The notes under the pieces: generated by a model | The model's input: the letters and a program-made list of their open reading frames with translations, nothing else | Databases searched by the model: none | Told to the model about the DNA's origin: nothing | Program-made: the position numbers and the translations under genes | Shown here: positions 582 to 14,900 of the stretch, piece after piece | How positions within the stretch are numbered: the first letter of the stretch is position 1 | Layout of the letters: the number at the start of each line of letters is the position of its first letter | Assembly: GCA_903901915.1 (NCBI GenBank) | Contig: CAIUSV010000025.1 | Location: 1 to 49,287 of the forward strand | Source: an uncultured Rhodospirillaceae bacterium | GTDB lineage: Bacteria > Pseudomonadota > Alphaproteobacteria > Rhodospirillales > Magnetospirillaceae | DNA: 49,287 nt | Direction of reading: 5' to 3'

Positions 582-2072
582 TTAGCGCATATTAAAGATG
601 ATGGTCTTCTTGTGGGTGAAGTGCTCCAGCATGGATTCCAGCGAGGCTTCGCGGCCGAGGCCCGAGGTCTTGACGCCGCCATAGGATAGCCCCGGCTGTA
701 CCACCAGGTTCTGGTTGACCTGGACGAAGCCGGCCTCCAGCCGCCGCGTGGCGTCCATGGCGATCTTGATGTCACGGGTCCAGATCGAGGCGGCAAGGCC
801 GTATTCGCTGTCGTTGGCCTGATTGATCACCGATTCGTAATCGCTCCATTTGATCACGGCGCAGACCGGGCCGAAGATCTCTTCCCGGCAGATGCGGTCG
901 GCGTTGGTGACGCCGGTGAAGATCACCGGCTGGACGAAGCGGCCGTTGGTCAATTTGGCGTCCTTGGGCATGGCCGAGCAGACGTGCTTGGTGGCGCCCT
1001 TGGTTTCCTCGCCCAGCTTGATGTAGCTGTTGACCCGCTCGAACTGGCCGTCGGAAATGATGGTGCCGATGTCGGTCTTCTCGTCCAGCGGATCGCCCAT
1101 CACCATGGCATCGACCTTGGCCTTCACCTTGGCGACGAACTCGTCGTGGATGCTTTCGTGGACGAAAATGCGCGAGGACGCGGTGCAGCTCTGGCCCTGG
1201 CGGGTGAAGCGCATGCCGGCCAGGGCGCCGGCCACCGCCTGATCCATGTCGGCGTCGGCGCAGACGATCATCGGGCTTTTGCCGCCCAGTTCCAGGGTGA
1301 CCGGAATCAGCTTTTCGGCGGCGGCCTTGTAGACGATGCGGCCGGTGTCGACGCTGCCGGTGAAGCTGACCTTGCCGACGTCGGGGTGTTCCACCAGCGG
1401 GGCGCCGCATTCGGGGCCGAAGCCGGACAGGATGTTGAAGACGCCGTGGGGCAGCACGGTGTTCATGATTTCGGCGACGCGCAGCACGGTCAGCGGCGCT
1501 TCCTCGGCCGACTTGACCACCACGGCGTTGCCGGCCACCAGGGCGGCGGCGGCTTTCATCGCCATCAGCAGCAGCGGCACGTTCCACGGAATGATGCAGG
1601 CGACCACGCCGACCGGCTCGCGCACGGTGACGGTCAGCATGTCGGGGTTGAAGGGGATGGTCTCGCCCTTCAACTCGCTGCCCAGGCCGCCAAAGAACAC
1701 GAACATGTCGGCTAGCACCCCGGCCTCGACCCGGCTTTCGGTGCGCAACGCCTTGCCGGTTTCCAGCGCCACCAGCCGGCCCAGTTCCTCGACGTGAGCG
1801 GACAGCACCCGGCCGCACTCGGCCACCAGCTTGCCCCGGCTGCGGGCGGACAGCTTGGCCCACTCCTTTTGCGCCGCCTTGGCCGCCGCCACGGCGGCAT
1901 CCACGTCCGCCTTGGTGCCGAAGGCGGCGGTGCCGATCTCCGCCAGGGTGGCGGGATTGTCCACCGGGAAGGTCTTGCCCGACTTGGCCGGCACGAAGGC
2001 GCCGCCGATAAGGTGCTTGCCCGACAGGGTCTTGGCCAGCTTGAAGGGATCGAGTTCCGGGGTGAGGGTCAT
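582..2072 (-). CDS. NAD(P)-dependent aldehyde dehydrogenase
   Basis: A 496-residue aldehyde dehydrogenase of normal family length, which oxidises an aldehyde to its acid. The active-site motifs are intact: LELGGKSP carries the general-base Glu (about residue 259) and GQSCTASSR carries the nucleophilic Cys (about 296). The PWN and FTGS nucleotide-binding motifs are also present. I chose the ATG at 2072 over the longer open frame because it begins the conserved domain, has an AAGAGAG ribosome site, and lies two bases after the stop of the upstream PaaK-like gene. It is the last gene of the Liv-ligase operon. The resemblance is to phenylacetaldehyde/benzaldehyde-type enzymes, but substrate cannot be read from sequence. 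It is not the CoA-acylating methylmalonate-semialdehyde type by general look. Confidence 0.9.
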   Translation of the reverse strand: MTLTPELDPFKLAKTLSGKHLIGGAFVPAKSGKTFPVDNPATLAEIGTAAFGTKADVDAAVAAAKAAQKEWAKLSARSRGKLVAECGRVLSAHVEELGRLVALETGKALRTESRVEAGVLADMFVFFGGLGSELKGETIPFNPDMLTVTVREPVGVVACIIPWNVPLLLMAMKAAAALVAGNAVVVKSAEEAPLTVLRVAEIMNTVLPHGVFNILSGFGPECGAPLVEHPDVGKVSFTGSVDTGRIVYKAAAEKLIPVTLELGGKSPMIVCADADMDQAVAGALAGMRFTRQGQSCTASSRIFVHESIHDEFVAKVKAKVDAMVMGDPLDEKTDIGTIISDGQFERVNSYIKLGEETKGATKHVCSAMPKDAKLTNGRFVQPVIFTGVTNADRICREEIFGPVCAVIKWSDYESVINQANDSEYGLAASIWTRDIKIAMDATRRLEAGFVQVNQNLVVQPGLSYGGVKTSGLGREASLESMLEHFTHKKTIIFNMR

Positions 2073-2074
2073 GA

Positions 2075-3304
2075 TCAGGCTCTCTTGTCGTGGATGACGA
2101 TGCCGTCGTTGGGAAGGTTGCCGGGGGTATCGAACGCCACCGTGGTCTTCAGTTTGCACAGCGAATGGAAGCTGTCCTGGATGGCGGCCGCCAGTCCCGG
2201 CTGGGCGACGGCGCTTTCCACCATCAGGGTCAAGGCGTCGGATTCGCCGTCGCGGGTGACCACCAGCCTGACACGGCCGATCTCGGCGTGGCGTTTGGTC
2301 AGTTCGGCGATCTGGCGGGGATGGATGAACATGCCCTTGACCTTGGTGGTCTGGTCGGCGCGGCCCATCCAGCCCTTCAGGCGCAGATTGGTGCGGCCGC
2401 AGGGGCTTTGCCCCGCCAGCACCGCCGACAGGTCGCCGGTGGCGAAGCGGATCAGCGGGTAGTCGGGGTTGAAGCTGGTCACCACCACCTCGCCGACCTC
2501 GCCGTCGGGGACCGGGTCGCCGGTGCCGGGGCGCACGATCTCGACGATGACGCCCTCGTCGACGATCAGTCCCTGGCGGGCCGGGCTTTCATAGGCGATC
2601 AGGCCGAGATCGGCGGTGGCATAACATTGGGTCACCTCCACCCCCAAATCCTTCAGCCCCTGGCGCAACGGCGGCAGCAGCGCCTCGCCCGAGACGCAGG
2701 CCTTGGTCAGGGAGGAATGGTCGAGACCCATCTCCTCGGCCTTTTCCAGGATGATCCGCAGGAACGAGGGCGTGCCGCCATAACCGGCGGGGCGCAGGTC
2801 GGCCACCGCGCGGGCCTGCTGCTCGGTATTGCCGACCCCGGCCGGGAACACCGGGCAGCCCAGGGCGTGGGCGCCGGTCTCGAACATCACGCCGCCGGGA
2901 GTGAAGTGGTACGAGAAGGCGTTGTGCATCAGCTCGCCCCGGCGGAAACCGGCGGCGAACAGGGCGCGGGCGACGCGCCACCAGTCGTTGTCCCAGCCCT
3001 CGGGGTCGTAGATCGGTCCCGGCGAGGCGAAGACGCGGCGCAGCTCGCTTTTCGGCGTGGCGATCAGCGAGGCGAAGGGCGGATCGGCCTGCTGGGCGTC
3101 GATCAGTTCTGACTTGCGGGTTACCGGCAGCCGGGCCAGGGCGGCGCGGTCGGTGACGGTGGCCGGGTCGACGCCGGCCAGCAGCCGGCCGAAGGCGGGG
3201 GCGTCGGCCTGGGCCAGCGCCACCTGCTCGGGCAGGGCGGCGAACAGGGCCGTCTCGCGCTCGTCGGCCGAGCGGGTTTCCAGGGAATCAAAGTACTCGG
3301 TCAT
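2075..3304 (-). CDS. PaaK-like (phenylacetate-CoA ligase family) protein with degenerate active site
   Basis: A 409-residue member of the phenylacetate-CoA ligase branch of adenylate-forming enzymes. Family features are visible: GGTPSFLR, a VSGEALLPP segment, a YATADLGL segment in place of the usual aromatic-Gly-x-Thr-Glu motif, and IRFATGDLS plus GRADQTTKVKG near the C-terminus. Two key elements are not recognisable: the Ser/Thr/Gly-rich phosphate loop (SSGTTG-like) is replaced by ASPGPIYDPEG, and the C-terminal motif with the catalytic Lys (SEGK-like) reads NLPNDGIVIHDKR. The ATG at 3304 overlaps the livF stop codon (TAATG), supporting this start over a GTG nine bases upstream. It may be inactive, use a partner, or be an unusual ligase or CoA transferase. 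The operon also encodes a complete acyl-CoA synthetase. Confidence 0.8.
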   Translation of the reverse strand: MTEYFDSLETRSADERETALFAALPEQVALAQADAPAFGRLLAGVDPATVTDRAALARLPVTRKSELIDAQQADPPFASLIATPKSELRRVFASPGPIYDPEGWDNDWWRVARALFAAGFRRGELMHNAFSYHFTPGGVMFETGAHALGCPVFPAGVGNTEQQARAVADLRPAGYGGTPSFLRIILEKAEEMGLDHSSLTKACVSGEALLPPLRQGLKDLGVEVTQCYATADLGLIAYESPARQGLIVDEGVIVEIVRPGTGDPVPDGEVGEVVVTSFNPDYPLIRFATGDLSAVLAGQSPCGRTNLRLKGWMGRADQTTKVKGMFIHPRQIAELTKRHAEIGRVRLVVTRDGESDALTLMVESAVAQPGLAAAIQDSFHSLCKLKTTVAFDTPGNLPNDGIVIHDKRA

Positions 3305-4128
3305 TACAGCCACCGCTTGCGCCGCTTGTAGGATTTCAGGTTCTTGAACGACTTCCGCTCCTTGTCGCCGCCCAGGTAGAATTCCTTGACGTCCTCGTTG
3401 TTGACCAGATCGTCCTTGGCGCCGTCCAGCACGATCTTACCCGATTCCATGATGTAGCCGAACTCGGCGATTTTCAGCGCCATGCGGGCGTTCTGCTCGA
3501 CCAGCAAGATGGTAACGCCGGTGTCCCGGCACAGCTTCTCGATGATGGCGAAGACCTCCTTGACCAAGAGCGGCGACAGCCCCATCGACGGCTCGTCCAG
3601 CAGGATCATCTTGGGCCGGGCCATCATGGCGCGGCCGATGGCCAGCATCTGCTGCTCGCCACCGGAAAGATAGCCGGCGAGACCGACGCGTTCGCGCAGG
3701 CGGGGGAAATAGTCGAACACCATCTCGATATCGTTGCGGATGGCGGCGGCGCCGTCCTTGCGGGTGAAGGCGCCGAGCCGCAGGTTCTCGGTGACGGTCA
3801 TGTCCTCGATGATGCGGCGGCCCTCCATCACCTGGAAGATACCGCGCCGCACGATCTCCTCCGGGGCGCGATTGGCGATCTCTTCGCCCATGAAGGTGAT
3901 GTTGCCGCGGGTGACTTCGCCGTCCTCGGTCCCCAGCAGGCCGGAAATCGCCTTGAGCGTGGTCGATTTGCCGGCGCCGTTGGGACCCAGCAAGGTGACG
4001 ATGCGGCCTTTGGGCACGTCGAGGCTGACGCCGCGCAGCACCAAGATGACGTCGTCATAGACGACCTCGATATTGTTGACCGAGAGAATGATCTCGTCGG
4101 CGGCGGGTTTGACGGCGGGTTCGGCCAT
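3304..4128 (-). CDS. livF: Branched-chain-type ABC transporter ATP-binding protein LivF
   Basis: A 274-residue ATPase of a LivFGHMK-type importer, acting on the cytoplasmic face of the inner membrane. The Walker A motif GPNGAGKST, signature LSGGEQQML, Walker B ILLDEPSMGLSP and switch histidine region VEQNA are all seen. A basic C-terminal tail (KSYKRRKRWL) extends past the usual LivF end; such tails are common in versions from aromatic-acid operons. It follows livK after a hairpin-containing gap and overlaps the PaaK-like gene by one base. The transported compound is unknown: a branched-chain amino acid or, given the ligases, an aromatic acid. Confidence 0.93.
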   Translation of the reverse strand: MAEPAVKPAADEIILSVNNIEVVYDDVILVLRGVSLDVPKGRIVTLLGPNGAGKSTTLKAISGLLGTEDGEVTRGNITFMGEEIANRAPEEIVRRGIFQVMEGRRIIEDMTVTENLRLGAFTRKDGAAAIRNDIEMVFDYFPRLRERVGLAGYLSGGEQQMLAIGRAMMARPKMILLDEPSMGLSPLLVKEVFAIIEKLCRDTGVTILLVEQNARMALKIAEFGYIMESGKIVLDGAKDDLVNNEDVKEFYLGGDKERKSFKNLKSYKRRKRWL

Positions 4129-4188: not shown

Positions 4189-5430
4189 TTACCAGCCCAG
4201 CCATTCCTTGCGGCGGGGGATGTCGGCGGTATAGACCAGCTTCATGCCGATGGTGCCGCCCTTGGTCGACGCCTGATAGGCCCGGACCGTGGTGGTGCCG
4301 CGATGGTCGTCGGCGGTCCAGGTCGAGGGCAGGCAGACGCCGTCCAGTCCGGCCGGTACCCAATCCTTCTTGCCGGCTTCCATGGCCTTCTTAATGTTGG
4401 GGCCGGTGATGCCGCCTTGCATCTTGTCGGCGGCCTCCATGGCCTCCTTCATGTAGTAGACCGAGCAGACGGCGCGGATGTAGTGCACCGGCCGGGCCTC
4501 GGTACCGCTGGCGTCGGAGACCTTGGAGATTTCGCGCACCAGCTTCATGCCGGCGACGTCGTCGGTCCAGGTGGCGGCGCCCACCACCCACACCAGCTTG
4601 TCCGAGGCTTCGCCGGCGGCCTTCAGCGAGCCCTCGTCGGTGCCCCAGATGTTGGCCAGGAACTGGACGTTGACGCCCACCGTCTCGCACGACTTCAGCA
4701 GCGAGATGGTCGACCCCGAGGTGTTGGCGAGATAGGCGTAATCGGCGCCCGATTCCTTGAGGCTCAGGCACTGGGCCTTGAAGTCGCCCGGCTTCAGCGA
4801 ATACTGGATCTCGTTCAGGACGTCGAGGCCCAGTTCCTTGGCATAGGCGCCGCAGGCCGCCTTGGGGGCGTTGGGATAGGGGTGGTTGTCGCCCATGTGG
4901 ACGAACTTGGCCTTGCCCTTGCCGCCCTTCTTCTTCCAGTCCTCGGCCGCCCATTGCACCAGGCCGCGGCAGGCGTCGGAATAGCTGGGGCCGTAGAAGA
5001 AGTTGTAGGGCGCGCCCTTGACCGAGGTCACCCCCTTGGGGTCGGTCAGGTGGCCGGAATAGGAGGCCGAGAAATAGGGAATCTCGTCCTTGGCCACCGA
5101 GGTGACCAGCGCCTCGGTATCGCCGGTGCCCCAGCCCTGGATGGCGACCGCCCGGTCCGATCCGGTCAGCTTCTTGTAGGCCGCCATGGCGCGCGGCACC
5201 TCGTAGGCGTAGTCCACGGTCTCGAAGATGATCTTCTTGCCGGCCACGCCGCCATGGGCGTTGATGTAGTTCATGGCATCGGCGATGCCTTGGCCATAGG
5301 GCTTGCCCACCGCCGAGGTGGCGCCGGTGATGTCGGCGATGTGGCCGACCAGGATGCCGTCGGCGGCGGTGGCGCTGCCGGCGGCGGCGATGGCGGCCAC
5401 GGTGGCGCCCGCGATCAGGATCTGCTTCAT
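4189..5430 (-). CDS. livK: Periplasmic substrate-binding protein, LivK type
   Basis: A 413-residue periplasmic binding protein of the type-I fold used by Liv-family importers. It begins with a signal peptide (MKQILIAGATVAAIAAAG, probable cut after SATA near residue 23), then ILVGHIADITGATS, the usual first strand and ligand loop. The ATG at 5430 follows a GGGAGGT ribosome site. The frame stays open far upstream only because GC-rich DNA has few stops; the signal peptide fixes the start. The length suits the aromatic/amide-ligand group better than classic leucine-binding proteins (about 370), which is weak evidence for a non-amino-acid ligand. Confidence 0.92.
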   Translation of the reverse strand: MKQILIAGATVAAIAAAGSATAADGILVGHIADITGATSAVGKPYGQGIADAMNYINAHGGVAGKKIIFETVDYAYEVPRAMAAYKKLTGSDRAVAIQGWGTGDTEALVTSVAKDEIPYFSASYSGHLTDPKGVTSVKGAPYNFFYGPSYSDACRGLVQWAAEDWKKKGGKGKAKFVHMGDNHPYPNAPKAACGAYAKELGLDVLNEIQYSLKPGDFKAQCLSLKESGADYAYLANTSGSTISLLKSCETVGVNVQFLANIWGTDEGSLKAAGEASDKLVWVVGAATWTDDVAGMKLVREISKVSDASGTEARPVHYIRAVCSVYYMKEAMEAADKMQGGITGPNIKKAMEAGKKDWVPAGLDGVCLPSTWTADDHRGTTTVRAYQASTKGGTIGMKLVYTADIPRRKEWLGW

Positions 5431-5468: not shown

Positions 5469-6539
5469 TCAGTAGGAGAACGGGTACAGCTTCCAATAGG
5501 ATTTGATCAGACGCCAGCGGTGAACCAGCCCGTCCGGCTCGAAGATGAGGAACAGCACGATGGCCAGGCCGATGGCCGCCTCCTTGATGTAGGCCAGGGC
5601 GCTGGTGACCGCCGGAATGTCGCCGATGACGTGCTTGATGGTGCTGACGGCGGCCTCGGTGGCCTCGGGCAGCAGCACCATGAAGGCGGTTCCCATCAGC
5701 GTTCCCATCACCGAGCCCATGCCGCCGATGATGATCATGCCGAGAAACTGGATCGACAACAGGATGGTGAATCCCTCGGCCGAGACATAGCCGAGATAGT
5801 GGCCGTACAGCGCCCCGCCCACTCCGGCGTAGAACGACGAGATGCCGAACGACAAGATGCGGTACTTGGTGAGGTTGATGCCCATCACCTCGGCCGACAG
5901 GTAGTGGTCGCGCACCGCGACGAAGGCGCGGCCGTCGCGGGTGCGCAGCAGGTTGGTGCCCAACAGGAACATCACCACCACGAAGGCCAGCACCACGTAG
6001 AAGAAGGCGCGGTCGCCGCTGACCTCGTAGCCGAGCAGGTTGATCGGCCCCGCCATCGCCCCCGACGAGCCGCCGGTGAACCAGTTGGCGCGCGAAAAGA
6101 AGTCTTCCAGGATGAACTGCGAGGCGAAGGTGGCGATGGCGAGATACAGCCCCTTCAGCCGGCCTGCCGGAATGCCGAACAGCAGCCCCAGCAGGGTCGT
6201 CATCACCCCGGCCAGCGGAATCGCCAGCAGCACCGGAATGCCGAAGATGTTGTTCAGCCATGCCGAGGCGAAGGCGCCGAAGCCGAAGAAGGCGGCGTGG
6301 CCCAGCGAGATCTGTCCGGTGCAGCCCACCAGGATATTGAGGCCCAGCGCGGCGATGCCGAAAAAGCCGATCTGGATCAGCAGCGATATCAGGTAGTTGG
6401 ACAGAACCCACGGCGCCGCCATCGCGACGACGAGGCCGAGAATGCAGAAATTGCGCGACGCCGGGGTCAGGAAGATGGTGGTGTCCCTGGCATAGCTGGT
6501 CTTGAACTGGCCGCAGGGAATGAGGCTGCTGGAGATCAT
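5469..6539 (-). CDS. livM: Branched-chain-type ABC transporter permease LivM
   Basis: A 356-residue inner-membrane permease. After a hydrophilic N-terminal segment of about 30 residues come eight or more hydrophobic segments. The LivM landmark NILVGCTGQISLGHAAFFG is present near residue 85, as is the cytoplasmic coupling region around AVRDHYLSAEVMGIN that contacts the ATPase. The C-terminus, from EPDGLVHRW onward, carries a short hydrophilic tail ending in YPFSY. It sits between livH (six-base gap) and livK (38-base gap) in the same direction, so the two permease subunits are made together. Confidence 0.93.
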   Translation of the reverse strand: MISSSLIPCGQFKTSYARDTTIFLTPASRNFCILGLVVAMAAPWVLSNYLISLLIQIGFFGIAALGLNILVGCTGQISLGHAAFFGFGAFASAWLNNIFGIPVLLAIPLAGVMTTLLGLLFGIPAGRLKGLYLAIATFASQFILEDFFSRANWFTGGSSGAMAGPINLLGYEVSGDRAFFYVVLAFVVVMFLLGTNLLRTRDGRAFVAVRDHYLSAEVMGINLTKYRILSFGISSFYAGVGGALYGHYLGYVSAEGFTILLSIQFLGMIIIGGMGSVMGTLMGTAFMVLLPEATEAAVSTIKHVIGDIPAVTSALAYIKEAAIGLAIVLFLIFEPDGLVHRWRLIKSYWKLYPFSY

Positions 6540-6545
6540 GGCGCG

Positions 6546-7439
6546 TCACACCCTCTCGATGGTCTTGGTGCCGAACAGGCCGTAGGGCTTGATCATCAAG
6601 ATGATGACCAGGACGTAGAACGGCGCCACGGTATAGAGGTTCCCCAGGTGGAGGAACTGGCCGTCCGCGTACTCGGCCAGATTTTCCAGCAGGCCGATGA
6701 TCAGCCCGCCGATGATGGCACCGACGATGGAATCCAGTCCGCCGACGATCACCGCCGGGAACACCTTGATGCCGAAGAACGACAGCGCCGACGACACGCC
6801 GTTGACCATGCCCACCACCACGCCGGCCAGGGCCGAGACCATGGCCGAGATCGCCCAGGCCATGGCGAACACGTTCTTGACCGAAATGCCCAGGCTTTGC
6901 GCCACCTGCTGGTTGAAGGCGGTTGCGCGCATCGCCAGGCCCATGCGCGAGTATTTGAAGAACCAGGCGAACGCCACCATGATCACCAGCGACACCACCA
7001 GACTCATGAGATAGGCCGGCTGCACCGCCAGTCCGAACACATCCACCGATTTGACCGGGAAGATTTCGGGGAAGGGCTGGGCCCAGACGCCGAAGATCGA
7101 CTTGATCACCGCCTGGAAAAAGATCGACAGCCCGATGGTGACCATGATCACCGAGATCACCGGCTCGCCGATCAGCGGGCGCAGCACCACCATCTGCAGG
7201 ACGATGCCGAACACCATCATGAACACGAAGGTCATGGGGAAGGCGAACCAGAACGGCAGTTCCATGCTGGTGACCAGCCACCAGCAGGTCCAGGCGCCGA
7301 TCAGCAGGAACTCGCCCTGGGCGAAGTTCACCACCTGGGTCGATTTGTAGATCAGCACGAAGCACATGGCGACGACGCCGTACAAGGTGCCGACGATCAG
7401 GCCGTTGATGATCAGTTGGAGCAGCAGCGAGGACGTCAT
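6546..7439 (-). CDS. livH: Branched-chain-type ABC transporter permease LivH
   Basis: A 297-residue membrane permease, the LivM partner. Family landmarks are the N-terminal LLIINGLIVGTLYG-like helix, VNFAQGEFLLIGA, and the coupling segment AFNQQVAQSLGISVKNVF near residues 180-195. It ends with IKPYGLFGTKTIERV, typical of LivH. The ATG at 7439 has a good AGGAGAG site and follows the acyl-CoA synthetase stop by 12 bases. With LivM it should form the heterodimeric channel. Confidence 0.94.
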   Translation of the reverse strand: MTSSLLLQLIINGLIVGTLYGVVAMCFVLIYKSTQVVNFAQGEFLLIGAWTCWWLVTSMELPFWFAFPMTFVFMMVFGIVLQMVVLRPLIGEPVISVIMVTIGLSIFFQAVIKSIFGVWAQPFPEIFPVKSVDVFGLAVQPAYLMSLVVSLVIMVAFAWFFKYSRMGLAMRATAFNQQVAQSLGISVKNVFAMAWAISAMVSALAGVVVGMVNGVSSALSFFGIKVFPAVIVGGLDSIVGAIIGGLIIGLLENLAEYADGQFLHLGNLYTVAPFYVLVIILMIKPYGLFGTKTIERV

Positions 7440-9414: not shown

Positions 9415-10215
<801 letters not shown>

Positions 10216-10346: not shown

Positions 10347-11237
10347 TCACGCCTTGCCGCGCAGCATGTGGATGATGCCGGAGAAATCGAGACCGCCCTG
10401 GCCGGCGCCGGCCATCAGGTTGTAAAGCTGGGCCGCTTCGGCCCCCAGCGGTACGCTGGCCCCGGCGCCCTGGGCGGCCTCGACCGCCAGCTTGAGGTCT
10501 TTCAGCATCATGGCGGCGGCGAAGCCTGCCTTGTAATCGCGATTGGCGGGCGACGTCGGCACCGGCCCCGGTACCGGGCAATAGGTGGTCATCGACCAGC
10601 ACTGGCCCGACGATTTCGAGGCGATGTCGAACAGCTTCTGGGCGTCGAGGCCCAACTTCTCGGCCAGGGCGAACGCCTCGCAGGTGCCGATCATCGAGAT
10701 GCCCAGCAGCATGTTGTTGCAGATCTTGGCGGCCTGACCGTTGCCGGGTCCGCCGGCATGGACGATGGTCTTGCCCATGGCCTCCAGGAACGGCTTGGCG
10801 CGGGCGAAGGCGGGGTCGGGGCCGCCGACCATGAAGGTCAGCGTTCCGGCCTCGGCGCCGCCGACGCCGCCCGACACCGGCGCGTCGATCATCAGGTGCC
10901 CGGCCTTGGCGGCCTCGTCGGCGACGGCCCGCGCCGAGGCCACGTCGATGGTCGAGGAATCGATGAACAAGGTGCCCTTGGCGGCGGCGGCGAACAGCCC
11001 GCCCTCACCCAGGGTCACCGATTTGACATGGGCGCCGGCCGGCAGCATGGTCACCACCACCTCGACCCCCTGGGCGGCCTCGCGGGCGGTGGTGACGGCG
11101 GTGGCGCCGGCATCGGCGGCGGCCTTGCGGGCGGTGTCCGCCAGGTCGAAGGCCTTGACCGCGTGTCCGGCCTTGATCAGGTTGCGCATCATCGGCGCGC
11201 CCATGTTGCCGAGACCGATGAATCCGACGCTCGCCAT
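10347..11237 (-). CDS. mmsB: 3-Hydroxyisobutyrate dehydrogenase
   Basis: A 296-residue NAD-dependent dehydrogenase that oxidises 3-hydroxyisobutyrate to methylmalonate semialdehyde in valine breakdown. The N-terminal Rossmann motif GFIGLGNMGAPM, the substrate loop DAPVSGGVGGAEAGTLT (near residue 120) and the catalytic Lys in GQAAKICNN (about 170) are intact and in the usual order. Length is typical. The ATG at 11237 has a GGGAGG site and lies 18 bases after the acyl-CoA dehydrogenase stop, so the two form an operon. No methylmalonate-semialdehyde dehydrogenase follows. Confidence 0.94.
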   Translation of the reverse strand: MASVGFIGLGNMGAPMMRNLIKAGHAVKAFDLADTARKAAADAGATAVTTAREAAQGVEVVVTMLPAGAHVKSVTLGEGGLFAAAAKGTLFIDSSTIDVASARAVADEAAKAGHLMIDAPVSGGVGGAEAGTLTFMVGGPDPAFARAKPFLEAMGKTIVHAGGPGNGQAAKICNNMLLGISMIGTCEAFALAEKLGLDAQKLFDIASKSSGQCWSMTTYCPVPGPVPTSPANRDYKAGFAAAMMLKDLKLAVEAAQGAGASVPLGAEAAQLYNLMAGAGQGGLDFSGIIHMLRGKA

Positions 11238-11255: not shown

Positions 11256-12392
11256 TTATCCCGTCAGCGACCGGCCGACGATCATCCGCATGATCTCGTT
11301 CGACCCTTCGAGAATCTGGTGGACCCGAAGGTCGCGCAGATAGCGTTCGATGGGATATTCCTTGATGTAGCCGTAGCCGCCGTGCAGTTGCAGCGCCGCG
11401 TCCACCACCTGAAAGCCCACATCGGTGGCGAGGCGTTTGGCCATGGCGCAATGCATCGTGGCGTCCGGCGACTTGCGGTCCAGCGAATCGGCGGCGCGGT
11501 GGATCATCAGCCGCGCCGCATCGAGTTCGGTGGCCATGTCGGCAAGGCGGAACTGGGTGGCCTGGAAGGCGTTGATCGGCTGGCCGAACTGCTGGCGCTG
11601 GCCGGTGTAGTCGATCGCCAGCTCCAGGCAGCGTCGGGCGCCGCCCAGCGAACAGGCGCCGATGTTGATGCGGCCGCCGTCCAGGCCCTTCATGGCGATC
11701 TTGAAGCCGTCGCCCTCGGCGCCGATCAGGTTGGCCGCCGGCACGCGGCAATCCTCGAAGATCACCGAGGAGGTGGGCTGGCTTTTCCAGCCCAGCTTCT
11801 TTTCCTGCTTGCCGAACGACAGGCCGGGCGTGCCCTTTTCCACCACCATGCACGAGATGCCCTTGGGGCCGGGGCCGCCGGTGCGCACCATCACCACATA
11901 GATGTCCGAGCGGCCGCCGCCGGAGATGAACGCCTTGGTGCCGTTCAGCACATAATGGTCGCCGTCGCGCTCGGCCCGGGTGCGCAGGCTGGCGGCGTCG
12001 GAACCGGCATTGGGCTCGGTCAGGCAGTAGCTGGCGAAGGTCCGCATGGCGGCGAGGTCGGGCAGCCAGCGTTGCCGCTGGTCCTCGGCGCCGAAGGTAT
12101 CGATCATCCACGACGCCATGTTGTGGATGGAGATATAGGCGGCGGTGGAGGGGCAGGCGGCGGCCAGTTCCTCGAAGATCAGGGCGGCGTCGAGGCGCGA
12201 CAGCTGCGAGCCGCCGACATCGTCGCGCACATAGATGCCGGCGAAGCCCAGTTCGGCGGCCTGACGCAGGCAGTCCTCGGGGAAAATCGAATCCTCGTCC
12301 CAGCGCGCGGCGTGGGGCGCCATCTCGCCCTCGGCGAAATCGCGGGCGGCGCGGCGAAAAGCTTCCTGGTCCTGGGAAAGGCCGAAATCCAT
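11256..12392 (-). CDS. Acyl-CoA dehydrogenase, probably isobutyryl-CoA dehydrogenase
   Basis: A 378-residue FAD flavoenzyme that introduces the 2,3 double bond into a short branched acyl-CoA. The order of elements is typical: [12 protein letters not shown] (FAD/substrate loop), GGGRSDIY, and at the C-terminus [19 protein letters not shown] followed by [10 protein letters not shown], whose Glu is the usual catalytic base. Its pairing with mmsB, and with the hydrolase on the other side of the regulator, points to isobutyryl-CoA in valine breakdown. The ATG at 12392 (MDFGLSQDQ) begins the family domain, so the longer upstream frame was not used. Confidence 0.9.
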
Positions 12393-12506
12393 CACCTGTC
12401 CATCCCTGCTCCGGAATCTGATGTCCCGGTTTGGTGTCAACAAGGGTACCGATCATTGCGACCGATGGGTACGGAATTATCACATCGGACGCCGACGGTC
12501 CACCTC

Positions 12507-12606: not shown

Positions 12607-13266
12607 ATGAACGAGCAGAAGCGGCCGGCGACGCGGGCGGAAGAGATCCGCCAAGCCATCGAGGGCGAGATCTTCCAGGGAAGCCTGCGCCCCGGCAGCC
12701 GTCTCGACGAGGAAAGCCTTGCCGCCCGCTTTGGCCTGTCGCGCACTCCGGTGCGCGAGGCCATCCTGCAGCTGGTTCATTCCGGGTTGGTGGTGAAGAA
12801 GCCGCGCCAGGGGGCGGTGGTGGCGCCGCTGGATCTGCACCGTATGGTCCAGTTGTTCGAGGTGATGAGCGAGATCGAGGGTCTGTGCGCCCGCTACGCC
12901 GCGCGGCGCATGTCGCCCGACGAAAAGGGCCGCCTCGCCGAGTTGCACGCCGGCGGGGTGTCGTTGCGCGAGGCCCATGACCTCGACGGCTATTACGCCC
13001 TCAACCGCGCCTTCCACGATGCCATCTACGACGGCAGCCACAATGATGTCCTGCGCGAGATGGCGCGTTCGCTGTTCGCGCGGCTGGCGCCCTATCGCCG
13101 CTATCAGCTCAACCATCCCCGCCGCATCGAAGGGTCGTATGCCGAACATGGCGAGGTGCTGGCCGCCATCCAGGCCGCCGACCCCGATCAGGCCCAGGCC
13201 GCCATGCGCAAGCACCTGACCATTCAGGCGGATATCTTCGCCGAATTCGTGTCCATCATGTCGTAG
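12607..13266 (+). CDS. GntR-family transcriptional regulator, FCD (FadR/VanR-like) type
   Basis: A 219-residue regulator. Residues 10-75 are the winged helix-turn-helix, with the hallmark LAARFGLSRTPVREAI recognition region and the KKPRQGAVV wing. Residues 80-215 are the all-helical FCD ligand domain; its metal-binding set is visible as N133/H137, H181 and H203, so it probably holds a metal that coordinates an organic acid or acyl ligand. It stands between divergent halves of a valine catabolic cluster, with TTGTATCCA sites before and after it, and probably represses both until an intermediate appears. The ligand is unknown. Confidence 0.92.
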   Translation: MNEQKRPATRAEEIRQAIEGEIFQGSLRPGSRLDEESLAARFGLSRTPVREAILQLVHSGLVVKKPRQGAVVAPLDLHRMVQLFEVMSEIEGLCARYAARRMSPDEKGRLAELHAGGVSLREAHDLDGYYALNRAFHDAIYDGSHNDVLREMARSLFARLAPYRRYQLNHPRRIEGSYAEHGEVLAAIQAADPDQAQAAMRKHLTIQADIFAEFVSIMS

Positions 13267-13268
13267 GA

Positions 13269-13300
13269 TTGTATCCAGAACCTATGCATTCTGGATACAA
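13269..13300. promoter_or_regulatory. Perfect 12-bp inverted repeat, candidate GntR operator for matB operon
   Basis: TTGTATCCAGAA (13269-13280) and TTCTGGATACAA (13289-13300) are a perfect inverted repeat around an 8-base spacer. It begins three bases after the regulator stop codon and lies 70 bases before matB. Each arm contains TTGTATCCA, also present at 12528-12536 in the regulator's own control region. An RNA hairpin is possible, but there is no U-run, and the shared word favours a DNA operator. Confidence 0.65.
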
Positions 13301-13370
13301 AACGGTGGAATCCCGGTGCCCGGTGTGCTATCGCCGGACTCCATCGCAGGCAAGATTGGGAGAGCGCCGC

Positions 13371-14900
13371 ATGACCGACAACCTCTACGACCTGTTCCGT
13401 TCGCGCTTTCCCGCCGACCGCTCGCGCCCGTTCATCGAGGTTCCCGACGGCGTCACCATCAGCTTCGCCGAGTTGGAGGCCGCCAGCGCCCGTTACGCCC
13501 ACGCCCTGGTCGCCGCCGGGGTCAAGCCGGGCGACCGGGTGGCGGTGCAGGTGGACAAGTCGGCCGAGGCGGTGGTGCTGGTGCTGGCCTGCCTGCGCTC
13601 GGGCGCCATCCTGTTGCCGCTCAACACCGCCTATCAGGCCGGCGAACTGGAATACTTCCTGTCCGACGCCGCCCCCGCCGCGGTGGTGTGCCAGCCGCAC
13701 CGTCTGGCCGAACTGGAGGCGGTGGTGGCGACCACCGGCATCGGCGCGCGGGTGCTGACGCTGGGGACCGCCGGGGATGGTTCGCTGCCCGACACGGCCA
13801 CGGGCAAGGCCGACAGCTTCGCCAGCGCCGCGCGCGGCGGCGACGACATCGCCGCCATCTTGTATTCGTCGGGCACCACCGGGCGGCCCAAGGGCGCCAT
13901 GCTCAGCCACACCAACCTTGCCGCCAACGCCGGCACGCTGCACAAGCTGTGGGGGTTCCGGCCCGACGACGTGCTGTTGCACTGCCTGCCGATCTTCCAC
14001 ACCCATGGCCTGTTCGTCGCCATCAACTGCGTGCTGATGAACGGCACCGGCATGATCTTCTGCCCCAAGTTCGACGCCGAGCAGGCGATCGGGCTGTTCG
14101 CGCGGGCCACCGTGTTCATGGGGGTGCCGACCTTCTATACCCGCTTCCTCGCCAGCCCCAACCTGACCCCAGAAGCCTGCGGCCACATCCGGCTGTTCAT
14201 TTCGGGTTCGGCGCCGTTGCTGGAGGAAACCTTCAACGCCTTCAAGGACCGTACCGGCCACACCATCCTCGAACGTTACGGCATGACCGAGGGCGGGATG
14301 TTCACCTCCAATCCGCTGGACGGCGACCGTCGCGCCGGCACCGTCGGCTTTCCGCTGCCCGACGTGAGCCTGCGCATAACCGGCGAGGATGGCCGGGTGC
14401 TGCCCCAGGGCGAGATCGGCATCATCGAGGTCAAGGGCCCCAACATCTTCAAGGGCTACTGGAACATGCCGGAGAAGACCAAGGCCGAGTTCACCGATGA
14501 CGGCTTCTTCCAAAGCGGCGATGTCGGCGTCGTCGACGAGCGGGGTTACGTCTCGATCGTCGGCCGCGCCAAGGACCTGATCATCTCGGGCGGCTACAAC
14601 GTCTATCCCAAGGAAATCGAGGATGTCATCGACCGCATGGACGGCGTCGTCGAATCGGCAGTGGTCGGCATGCCGCACCCCGATTTCGGCGAGGCCGGGC
14701 TGGCGGTGGTGGTCACCGCTCCGGGCGGCGGCGGACTGACCGCCGACGGCGTGCTGGCCGGGCTGAAGGGAAGGCTGGCCAACTACAAGGTGCCCAAGCA
14801 GGCGGTACTGGTGAGCGAACTGCCGCGCAACGCCATGGGCAAGGTCCAGAAGAACGTGCTGCGCGATCGTTATGCCGCCGAGTGGAAGGCCAAGCTGTGA
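13371..14900 (+). CDS. matB: Malonyl-CoA/methylmalonyl-CoA synthetase (MatB type)
   Basis: A 509-residue adenylate-forming ligase. The MatB-characteristic stretch LPIFHTHGLFVA, the phosphate loop YSSGTTGRPKG (about residue 165), GVPTFYTRFLA, ERYGMTEGGM and the catalytic-Lys motif GKVQKN (about 490) are intact. MatB enzymes activate malonate; the Rhodopseudomonas enzyme is known also to accept methylmalonate. The ATG at 13371 has a GGGAGAG site. It overlaps the next gene (TGATG), so the three plus-strand genes are translated together. In a valine pathway lacking a visible methylmalonate-semialdehyde dehydrogenase, methylmalonate activation is an attractive but unproven role. Confidence 0.87.
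   Translation: MTDNLYDLFRSRFPADRSRPFIEVPDGVTISFAELEAASARYAHALVAAGVKPGDRVAVQVDKSAEAVVLVLACLRSGAILLPLNTAYQAGELEYFLSDAAPAAVVCQPHRLAELEAVVATTGIGARVLTLGTAGDGSLPDTATGKADSFASAARGGDDIAAILYSSGTTGRPKGAMLSHTNLAANAGTLHKLWGFRPDDVLLHCLPIFHTHGLFVAINCVLMNGTGMIFCPKFDAEQAIGLFARATVFMGVPTFYTRFLASPNLTPEACGHIRLFISGSAPLLEETFNAFKDRTGHTILERYGMTEGGMFTSNPLDGDRRAGTVGFPLPDVSLRITGEDGRVLPQGEIGIIEVKGPNIFKGYWNMPEKTKAEFTDDGFFQSGDVGVVDERGYVSIVGRAKDLIISGGYNVYPKEIEDVIDRMDGVVESAVVGMPHPDFGEAGLAVVVTAPGGGGLTADGVLAGLKGRLANYKVPKQAVLVSELPRNAMGKVQKNVLRDRYAAEWKAKL

Follow-up and report, generated by a model that had tools for sequence, protein, structure and literature searches.

A PaaK-like protein with an S-P-G turn at the site of the phosphate loop, encoded in a Liv-type transporter operon beside an acyl-CoA synthetase

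A window of 49,287 nt from an uncultured Rhodospirillaceae bacterium (contig CAIUSV010000025.1), the whole stretch analysed here, contains a Liv-type transporter operon that also encodes an acyl-CoA synthetase (ACS) and a PaaK-like protein, designated PaaKx, with no phosphate loop. 

The gene, its operon and its family

PaaKx and the genes around it (Table 1) lie on the minus strand, in the transcriptional order acyl-CoA dehydrogenase-like gene, 3-hydroxyisobutyrate dehydrogenase gene, livG, ACS, livH, livM, binding protein gene, livF, PaaKx, and aldehyde dehydrogenase gene. The plus-strand reading of nt 2075-3304 was interrupted by a stop. The gene is the minus-strand ORF of 409 codons, full-length, in frame and coupled to livF as originally predicted, the stop of livF and the start of PaaKx sharing one base (TAATG). 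Divergent from the operon, on the plus strand at nt 12607-14900, lay a malonyl-CoA synthase-like gene scoring above its NCBIfam cut-off and a gene for a regulator, presumably of the GntR family, that matched TIGR03338 weakly and could regulate the PaaKx operon.

Table 1. Features of the PaaKx locus in the window
Feature	Position (nt)	Strand	Remarks
Aldehyde dehydrogenase	582..2072	-	Starts 2 nt after PaaKx stop
PaaKx (409 aa), PaaK-like, phosphate loop absent	2075..3304	-	ATG at 3304, stop at 2075
PaaKx Ile402, position of the C-terminal catalytic Lys	2099..2101	-	
PaaKx residues 311-326 (hinge/A8 region, GWMGRADQTTKVKGMF)	2327..2374	-	Clade-invariant W312, R315, D317, Q318, K321, F326
SPGPIYDPE, PaaKx residues 94-102	2999..3025	-	At site of PaaK loop SSGTTGKPT
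livF-type ATPase	3304..4128	-	Stop overlaps PaaKx start
Substrate-binding protein (Peripla_BP_6)	4189..5430	-	Start codon chosen by us
livM-type permease	5469..6539	-	
livH-type permease	6546..7439	-	
Acyl-CoA synthetase (ACS), 643 aa	7452..9383	-	Adenylation motifs intact
livG-type ATPase	9415..10215	-	
3-Hydroxyisobutyrate dehydrogenase	10347..11237	-	Above TIGR01692 cut-off
Acyl-CoA dehydrogenase-like protein	11256..12443	-	Start uncertain; below all NCBIfam cut-offs

The predicted kinship with PaaK was borne out by a sequence search, which matched PaaK1 (2y27) with an E value of 3.2e-42, and by an AlphaFold model (mean pLDDT 87.8), whose closest structures in the PDB were PaaK2/PaaK1; PaaKx is similar in fold and overall alignment to PaaK1/PaaK2 of Burkholderia cenocepacia (PDB 2y27, 2y4n, 2y4o). 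The Pfam model AMP-binding (PF00501, ANL superfamily) gave 40.4 bits against a gathering score of 29.9, and 26 of 26 members of set A1 matched it at an E value of 0.01. Against TIGR02155 the score was 152.6 bits, under the cut-off of 646.3, and none of the curated NCBIfam models reached its cut-off with PaaKx. Fold and homology of the TIGR02155 family were present in the window protein, and the loop SSGTTGKPT and C-terminal Lys of that family were absent. PaaKx differs from the PaaK phenylacetate-CoA ligases in having no phosphate loop, a C-terminal Lys that is not fixed, and new invariant residues. The 2-hydroxyisobutyryl-CoA synthetase (PDB 6hdw and related entries) has a similar PaaK-like fold (E value of 1.1e-34 by sequence, and a Foldseek match); it is, however, a solved ligase with adenylate-bound states. 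In the annotated plasmid records examined, PaaKx was named only 'AMP-binding protein', and a literature search of open-licence papers found none naming the protein or its module.

Conservation of the loop site, the C-terminal lysine and the active site

Twenty PaaK paralogues, hand-picked from the matches listed in relatives' genomes, all possessed a canonical loop (SSGTTG, SSGSTG or TSGTTG) and a C-terminal Lys, versus Ile402 in the window PaaKx and, at the loop site, SPGPIYDPE, which is about 5 residues shorter. Relative to these paralogues, P95 stood against Ser, I98 against Thr and Y99 against Gly in 20 of 20, and P97 against Thr in 19 of 20, in agreement with the original prediction that the loop is unrecognizable. 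A clade alignment of 161 sequences was composed of the window PaaKx, 80 sequences that we chose from neighbourhoods at about one per family, and the best 80 of 590 named loci; a few genomes occur in it twice (e.g., L114 and L167). S94-P95-G96 was invariant in all 161 sequences and SPGPI was present in 128, so that the motif suggested earlier as a clade signature is conserved in its S-P-G core and not letter for letter. A displaced but intact loop was rejected, since the alignment placed the SPG turn at the loop site and, in the AlphaFold model, the strands 90-94 and 98-102 flanked this turn.

At position 402 the 161 sequences had K (136), I (10), L (5), R (4), V (3), A (2) and Q (1), with approximately 18 changes, gains included, by parsimony on one tree. 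The predicted absence of the C-terminal Lys therefore holds for the window protein, but as a property of the clade it was rejected, 136 of 161 members keeping K; Ile402 is typical of the window's genus and of scattered others. The main role of the A10 Lys is in adenylation. About 18 changes are as expected if adenylation were no longer needed, whereas retention in 136 sequences is more than expected of a useless residue. In the portion of a comparison of aryl-CoA ligases available to us (PMC11497795), six residues were invariant, including loop glycines and a Lys; we interpret this Gly and Lys as the loop and C-terminal ones. Lacking the loop, a PaaK protein would be unable to bind the phosphates of ATP in the established manner.

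The pattern at the former active site is one of re-use rather than decay, as the old motifs are the most conserved columns and carry new invariant residues. The 81 adenylation-motif positions, with boundaries that we set from motif names, had lower entropy than the other 328 positions of PaaKx (p 1.7e-15). Y228, E255, D291, R315 and G324, among others, were common to PaaKx and the 20 paralogues, the ribose Asp (D291) and the hinge Arg (R315) thus being retained, while residues newly invariant in the clade included H133, P136, A231, G234, E250, W312, Q318, K321 and F326. H133 and K321 may correspond to residues with a catalytic role elsewhere in the ANL superfamily. The pockets were judged by motif, and a profile alignment of PaaKx with three ACS-type proteins spanned residues 176-348 only.

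PaaKx is a distinct clade, with a support of 0.84 and a long stem of 1.46 substitutions per site in one tree with five paralogues as the outgroup. Among 60 relatives, the source genome included, 25 had an orthologue (at least 494 bits), the next match scoring 160 bits; the gene was absent from two of the 17 genomes of the window's genus, and the nearest named relatives were from Paramagnetospirillum (83% identity). In broader samples, which overlap in part, the clade was found in 106 of 385 genomes of the class (E value of 1e-70) and 67 of 398 genomes of the phylum (E value of 1e-60). Orthologues were also observed in 27 plasmid records, 13 of them from Azospirillum and two predicted to be conjugative.

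A clade member sharing 62% identity was carried by a Desulfuromonadales MAG (L174), owing to either horizontal transfer or a binning error, and a second one was observed in the same phylum (L332). In this phylum, 92 of 247 genomes matched the clade profile at 1e-62 and two carried the clade itself, the weakest matches (about 211-221 bits) including ordinary PaaK proteins. The 39 loci retrieved had 43 matching ORFs, of which 32 (260-500 bits, from 30 loci) entered the count of homologues; the 11 excluded ORFs were a clade member, two weaker proteins of the SPG type, six ordinary PaaKs with an intact loop and two poor matches. P95 with G96, K or R at 321, and F326 were each present in 32 of 32, H133 in 25 and K at 402 in 13, the C-terminal alignment at this last position being uncertain. 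By our reading by eye, 19 of the 30 loci also had LivF and ACS, and in 16 of these 19 the PaaKx homologue immediately followed livF in the same orientation; the remaining 11 of the 30 did not have both within the fetched stretch. At two loci of this phylum (L305 and L315), a tandem pair of loop-less PaaK-like genes adjoined Liv and ACS genes. The two weaker proteins (L323 and L328) were more distant, with an SPGPI turn at the loop site and a different hinge region, hinting at a still broader loop-less group.

Association with the synthetase and the transporter

The genes livF, livM, livH, livG and ACS were all located upstream on the same strand in 118 of the 132 loci whose upstream sequence extended to 7.5 kb or more, and a LivF start lay within 1.2 kb upstream of PaaKx in 127 of the 157 loci where it extended to 0.9 kb or more. 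Two gene orders, livG-ACS-H-M-K-F and ACS-livG-H-M-K-F, were dominant; in 43 loci the binding protein was too diverged from that of the window to yield a match. The synthetase of the operon was predicted to be complete, and its loop Lys203 and C-terminal Lys583 were indeed present in all 119 aligned sequences (that of the window and those from 118 of 160 loci). Long-chain synthetases generally have a fixed residue pair at the positions matching ACS 476-477; these hinge positions vary freely among the 119 operon synthetases.

Among the 385 class genomes, 99 had both PaaKx and ACS, one had ACS only, seven had PaaKx only and 278 had neither at an ACS cut-off of 1e-122, the corresponding numbers at 1e-90 being 102, 11, four and 268. 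As only a few first-look candidates were scored per genome and the genomes are related, Fisher p-values exaggerate the strength of this co-occurrence. Several of the PaaKx-only genomes were incomplete, but one (G288) was listed as 100% complete. Where a PaaKx copy was located away from Liv genes, ACS was found elsewhere (1.5e-147 or better) in 15 of 15 genomes searched, and the predicted ORFs beside such copies, read by eye, had no common theme. Together, operon order and co-occurrence support a functional tie to the synthetase. No fusion of PaaKx to LivF or to the other queried genes was present among the ORFs of the 160 loci at 1e-60, and a search of PHROGs gave no match.

In the 118 complete operons, pairwise distances of LivF, LivG, LivH and LivM were intercorrelated with r 0.91-0.97, values due in part to a split into two transporter lineages, and ACS correlated with the Liv subunits at r 0.78-0.82. 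For PaaKx, r was 0.31-0.38 with the Liv subunits (0.38 with LivF) and 0.37 with ACS. PaaKx was paired with both diverged transporter lineages; 12 lineage changes were required on its tree versus a mean of 33 in 200 shuffles, indicating that it follows the transporter lineage in part. The earlier proposal of a subunit of, or a tether to, the importer was not supported, as the divergence of PaaKx did not track that of the Liv subunits, and the two lineages as well as the copies with no adjoining Liv genes speak against it too. The weak distance coupling favours action by way of a common small molecule over an interface specific to one partner. The correlation of PaaKx with ACS being no better than that with the transporter, there is no sign of a specific interface between the two, and a physical ACS-PaaKx complex receives no support from the distances. 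ACS of one lineage stood beside permeases of the other in seven of the 118 operons. Five hybrid operons (L103, L104, L110, L111 and L153) combined an ACS like that of the window's lineage with permeases of the other lineage.

Possible functions of PaaKx

The reading that we tentatively prefer is that PaaKx is a PaaK-fold protein dead in adenylation that acts in trans on acyl-AMP or acyl-CoA made by the operon ACS. The Liv-type transporter would import a hydrophobic or branched-chain acid, ACS would activate it with ATP, and PaaKx would bind the acyl-AMP or acyl-CoA so formed and process it, so that the thioester step is completed or gated. With the short S-P-G-P turn in place of the loop, PaaKx would have lost the ability to form an acyl-adenylate from ATP, its adenylate/acyl/CoA pocket being kept and rebuilt. 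In this scheme the absence of adenylation, the nature of the ligand, the chemistry and the class of substrate are all inferred. Retention of D291 and R315, together with the remodelled pocket, suggests a ligand of the adenylate or CoA type; since the operon ACS makes ligands of this type, most weight was placed on handling of its product, with a sensor and a ligase as rivals. Counted in favour of the preferred reading were loop loss in 161 of 161 clade members and in 32 of 32 second-phylum homologues, the constraint on the old active-site columns, the repeated changes at position 402, the intact ACS, the operon order and the co-occurrence with ACS, also where PaaKx lies away from the Liv genes. 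The Lys retained in most of the clade, the PaaKx-ACS distance correlation being no better than that with the transporter, and PaaKx without ACS in seven of 385 genomes (four at the looser cut-off), the complete G288 included, count against it. A role other than ordinary ligation, as originally predicted, is supported by the clade-wide loop loss, the frequent Lys loss and the new invariant active-site residues.

A pseudoenzyme that senses its ligand, binding acyl-CoA or AMP with no catalysis and regulating ACS or the LivF/LivG ATPases as feedback on import, is a rather unlikely alternative that has the position of PaaKx directly after livF, with the one-base overlap in the window and the frequent proximity of LivF elsewhere, and the conserved pocket with its adenylation loop gone on its side; the weak coupling to LivF and ACS, the pairing with two transporter lineages and the copies away from the operon speak against it, and the new invariant polar residues of the pocket are as compatible with catalysis as with binding. 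We regard as unlikely a split acyl-CoA ligase, in which ACS makes the acyl-adenylate and PaaKx, dedicated to the second half-reaction, transfers the acyl moiety to CoA or another acceptor; if true, the two enzymes would form an activation relay that follows import by a Liv-type transporter, in two phyla or more. That PaaKx ligates CoA in the ordinary manner through an atypical ATP site, its S-P-G-P turn still binding ATP in another way, would be consistent with the PaaK fold, several retained PaaK active-site residues and the Lys in 136 of 161 sequences, but is very unlikely given a loop shortened and altered throughout the clade, a Lys lost about 18 times versus its presence in all 20 paralogues, and an intact ACS already in the operon. 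The view of PaaKx as a degenerating passenger of the operon, to which the missing catalytic motifs and the two genomes of the genus lacking PaaKx might point, is scarcely credible, as no internal stops were present among the clade matches listed, conservation peaks in the old active site with S-P-G in every member, and homologues occur in two phyla; a pseudogene was likewise rejected on the orthologues across relatives and the strong constraint on the active-site columns.

PaaKx is the marker of a conserved, predicted import-and-activate module present in two phyla. It also provides an experimentally accessible example of an ANL protein with no ATP loop and a retained active site, and a warning that CoA-ligase names given by homology are unsafe for genes of this type.

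As to the substrate, the accessible text of a study of Rhodopseudomonas palustris (PMC3223731) states that its Liv-type binding proteins often bind hydrophobic acids and not branched-chain amino acids; the p-coumarate and pim clusters described there resemble the PaaKx operon in having ABC importer genes beside a gene for a hydrophobic-acid CoA ligase, and differ in that the same text mentions no loop-less PaaK protein for them. Within the sequence covered around each of the 160 loci, branched-chain catabolic genes were present at 11. Such flanking genes, among them the 3-hydroxyisobutyrate dehydrogenase gene of the window and the leucine/valine catabolic genes next to the Azospirillum brasilense operon, suggest that branched-chain acids are the substrate in some species. 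Searches of solved structures gave no match at 1e-20 with ACS and, with the binding protein, two binding proteins with no named substrate. On an Azospirillum brasilense plasmid (L337), the operon was flanked by genes for 3-hydroxyisobutyrate dehydrogenase, isovaleryl-CoA dehydrogenase, acyl-CoA carboxylase and HMG-CoA lyase.
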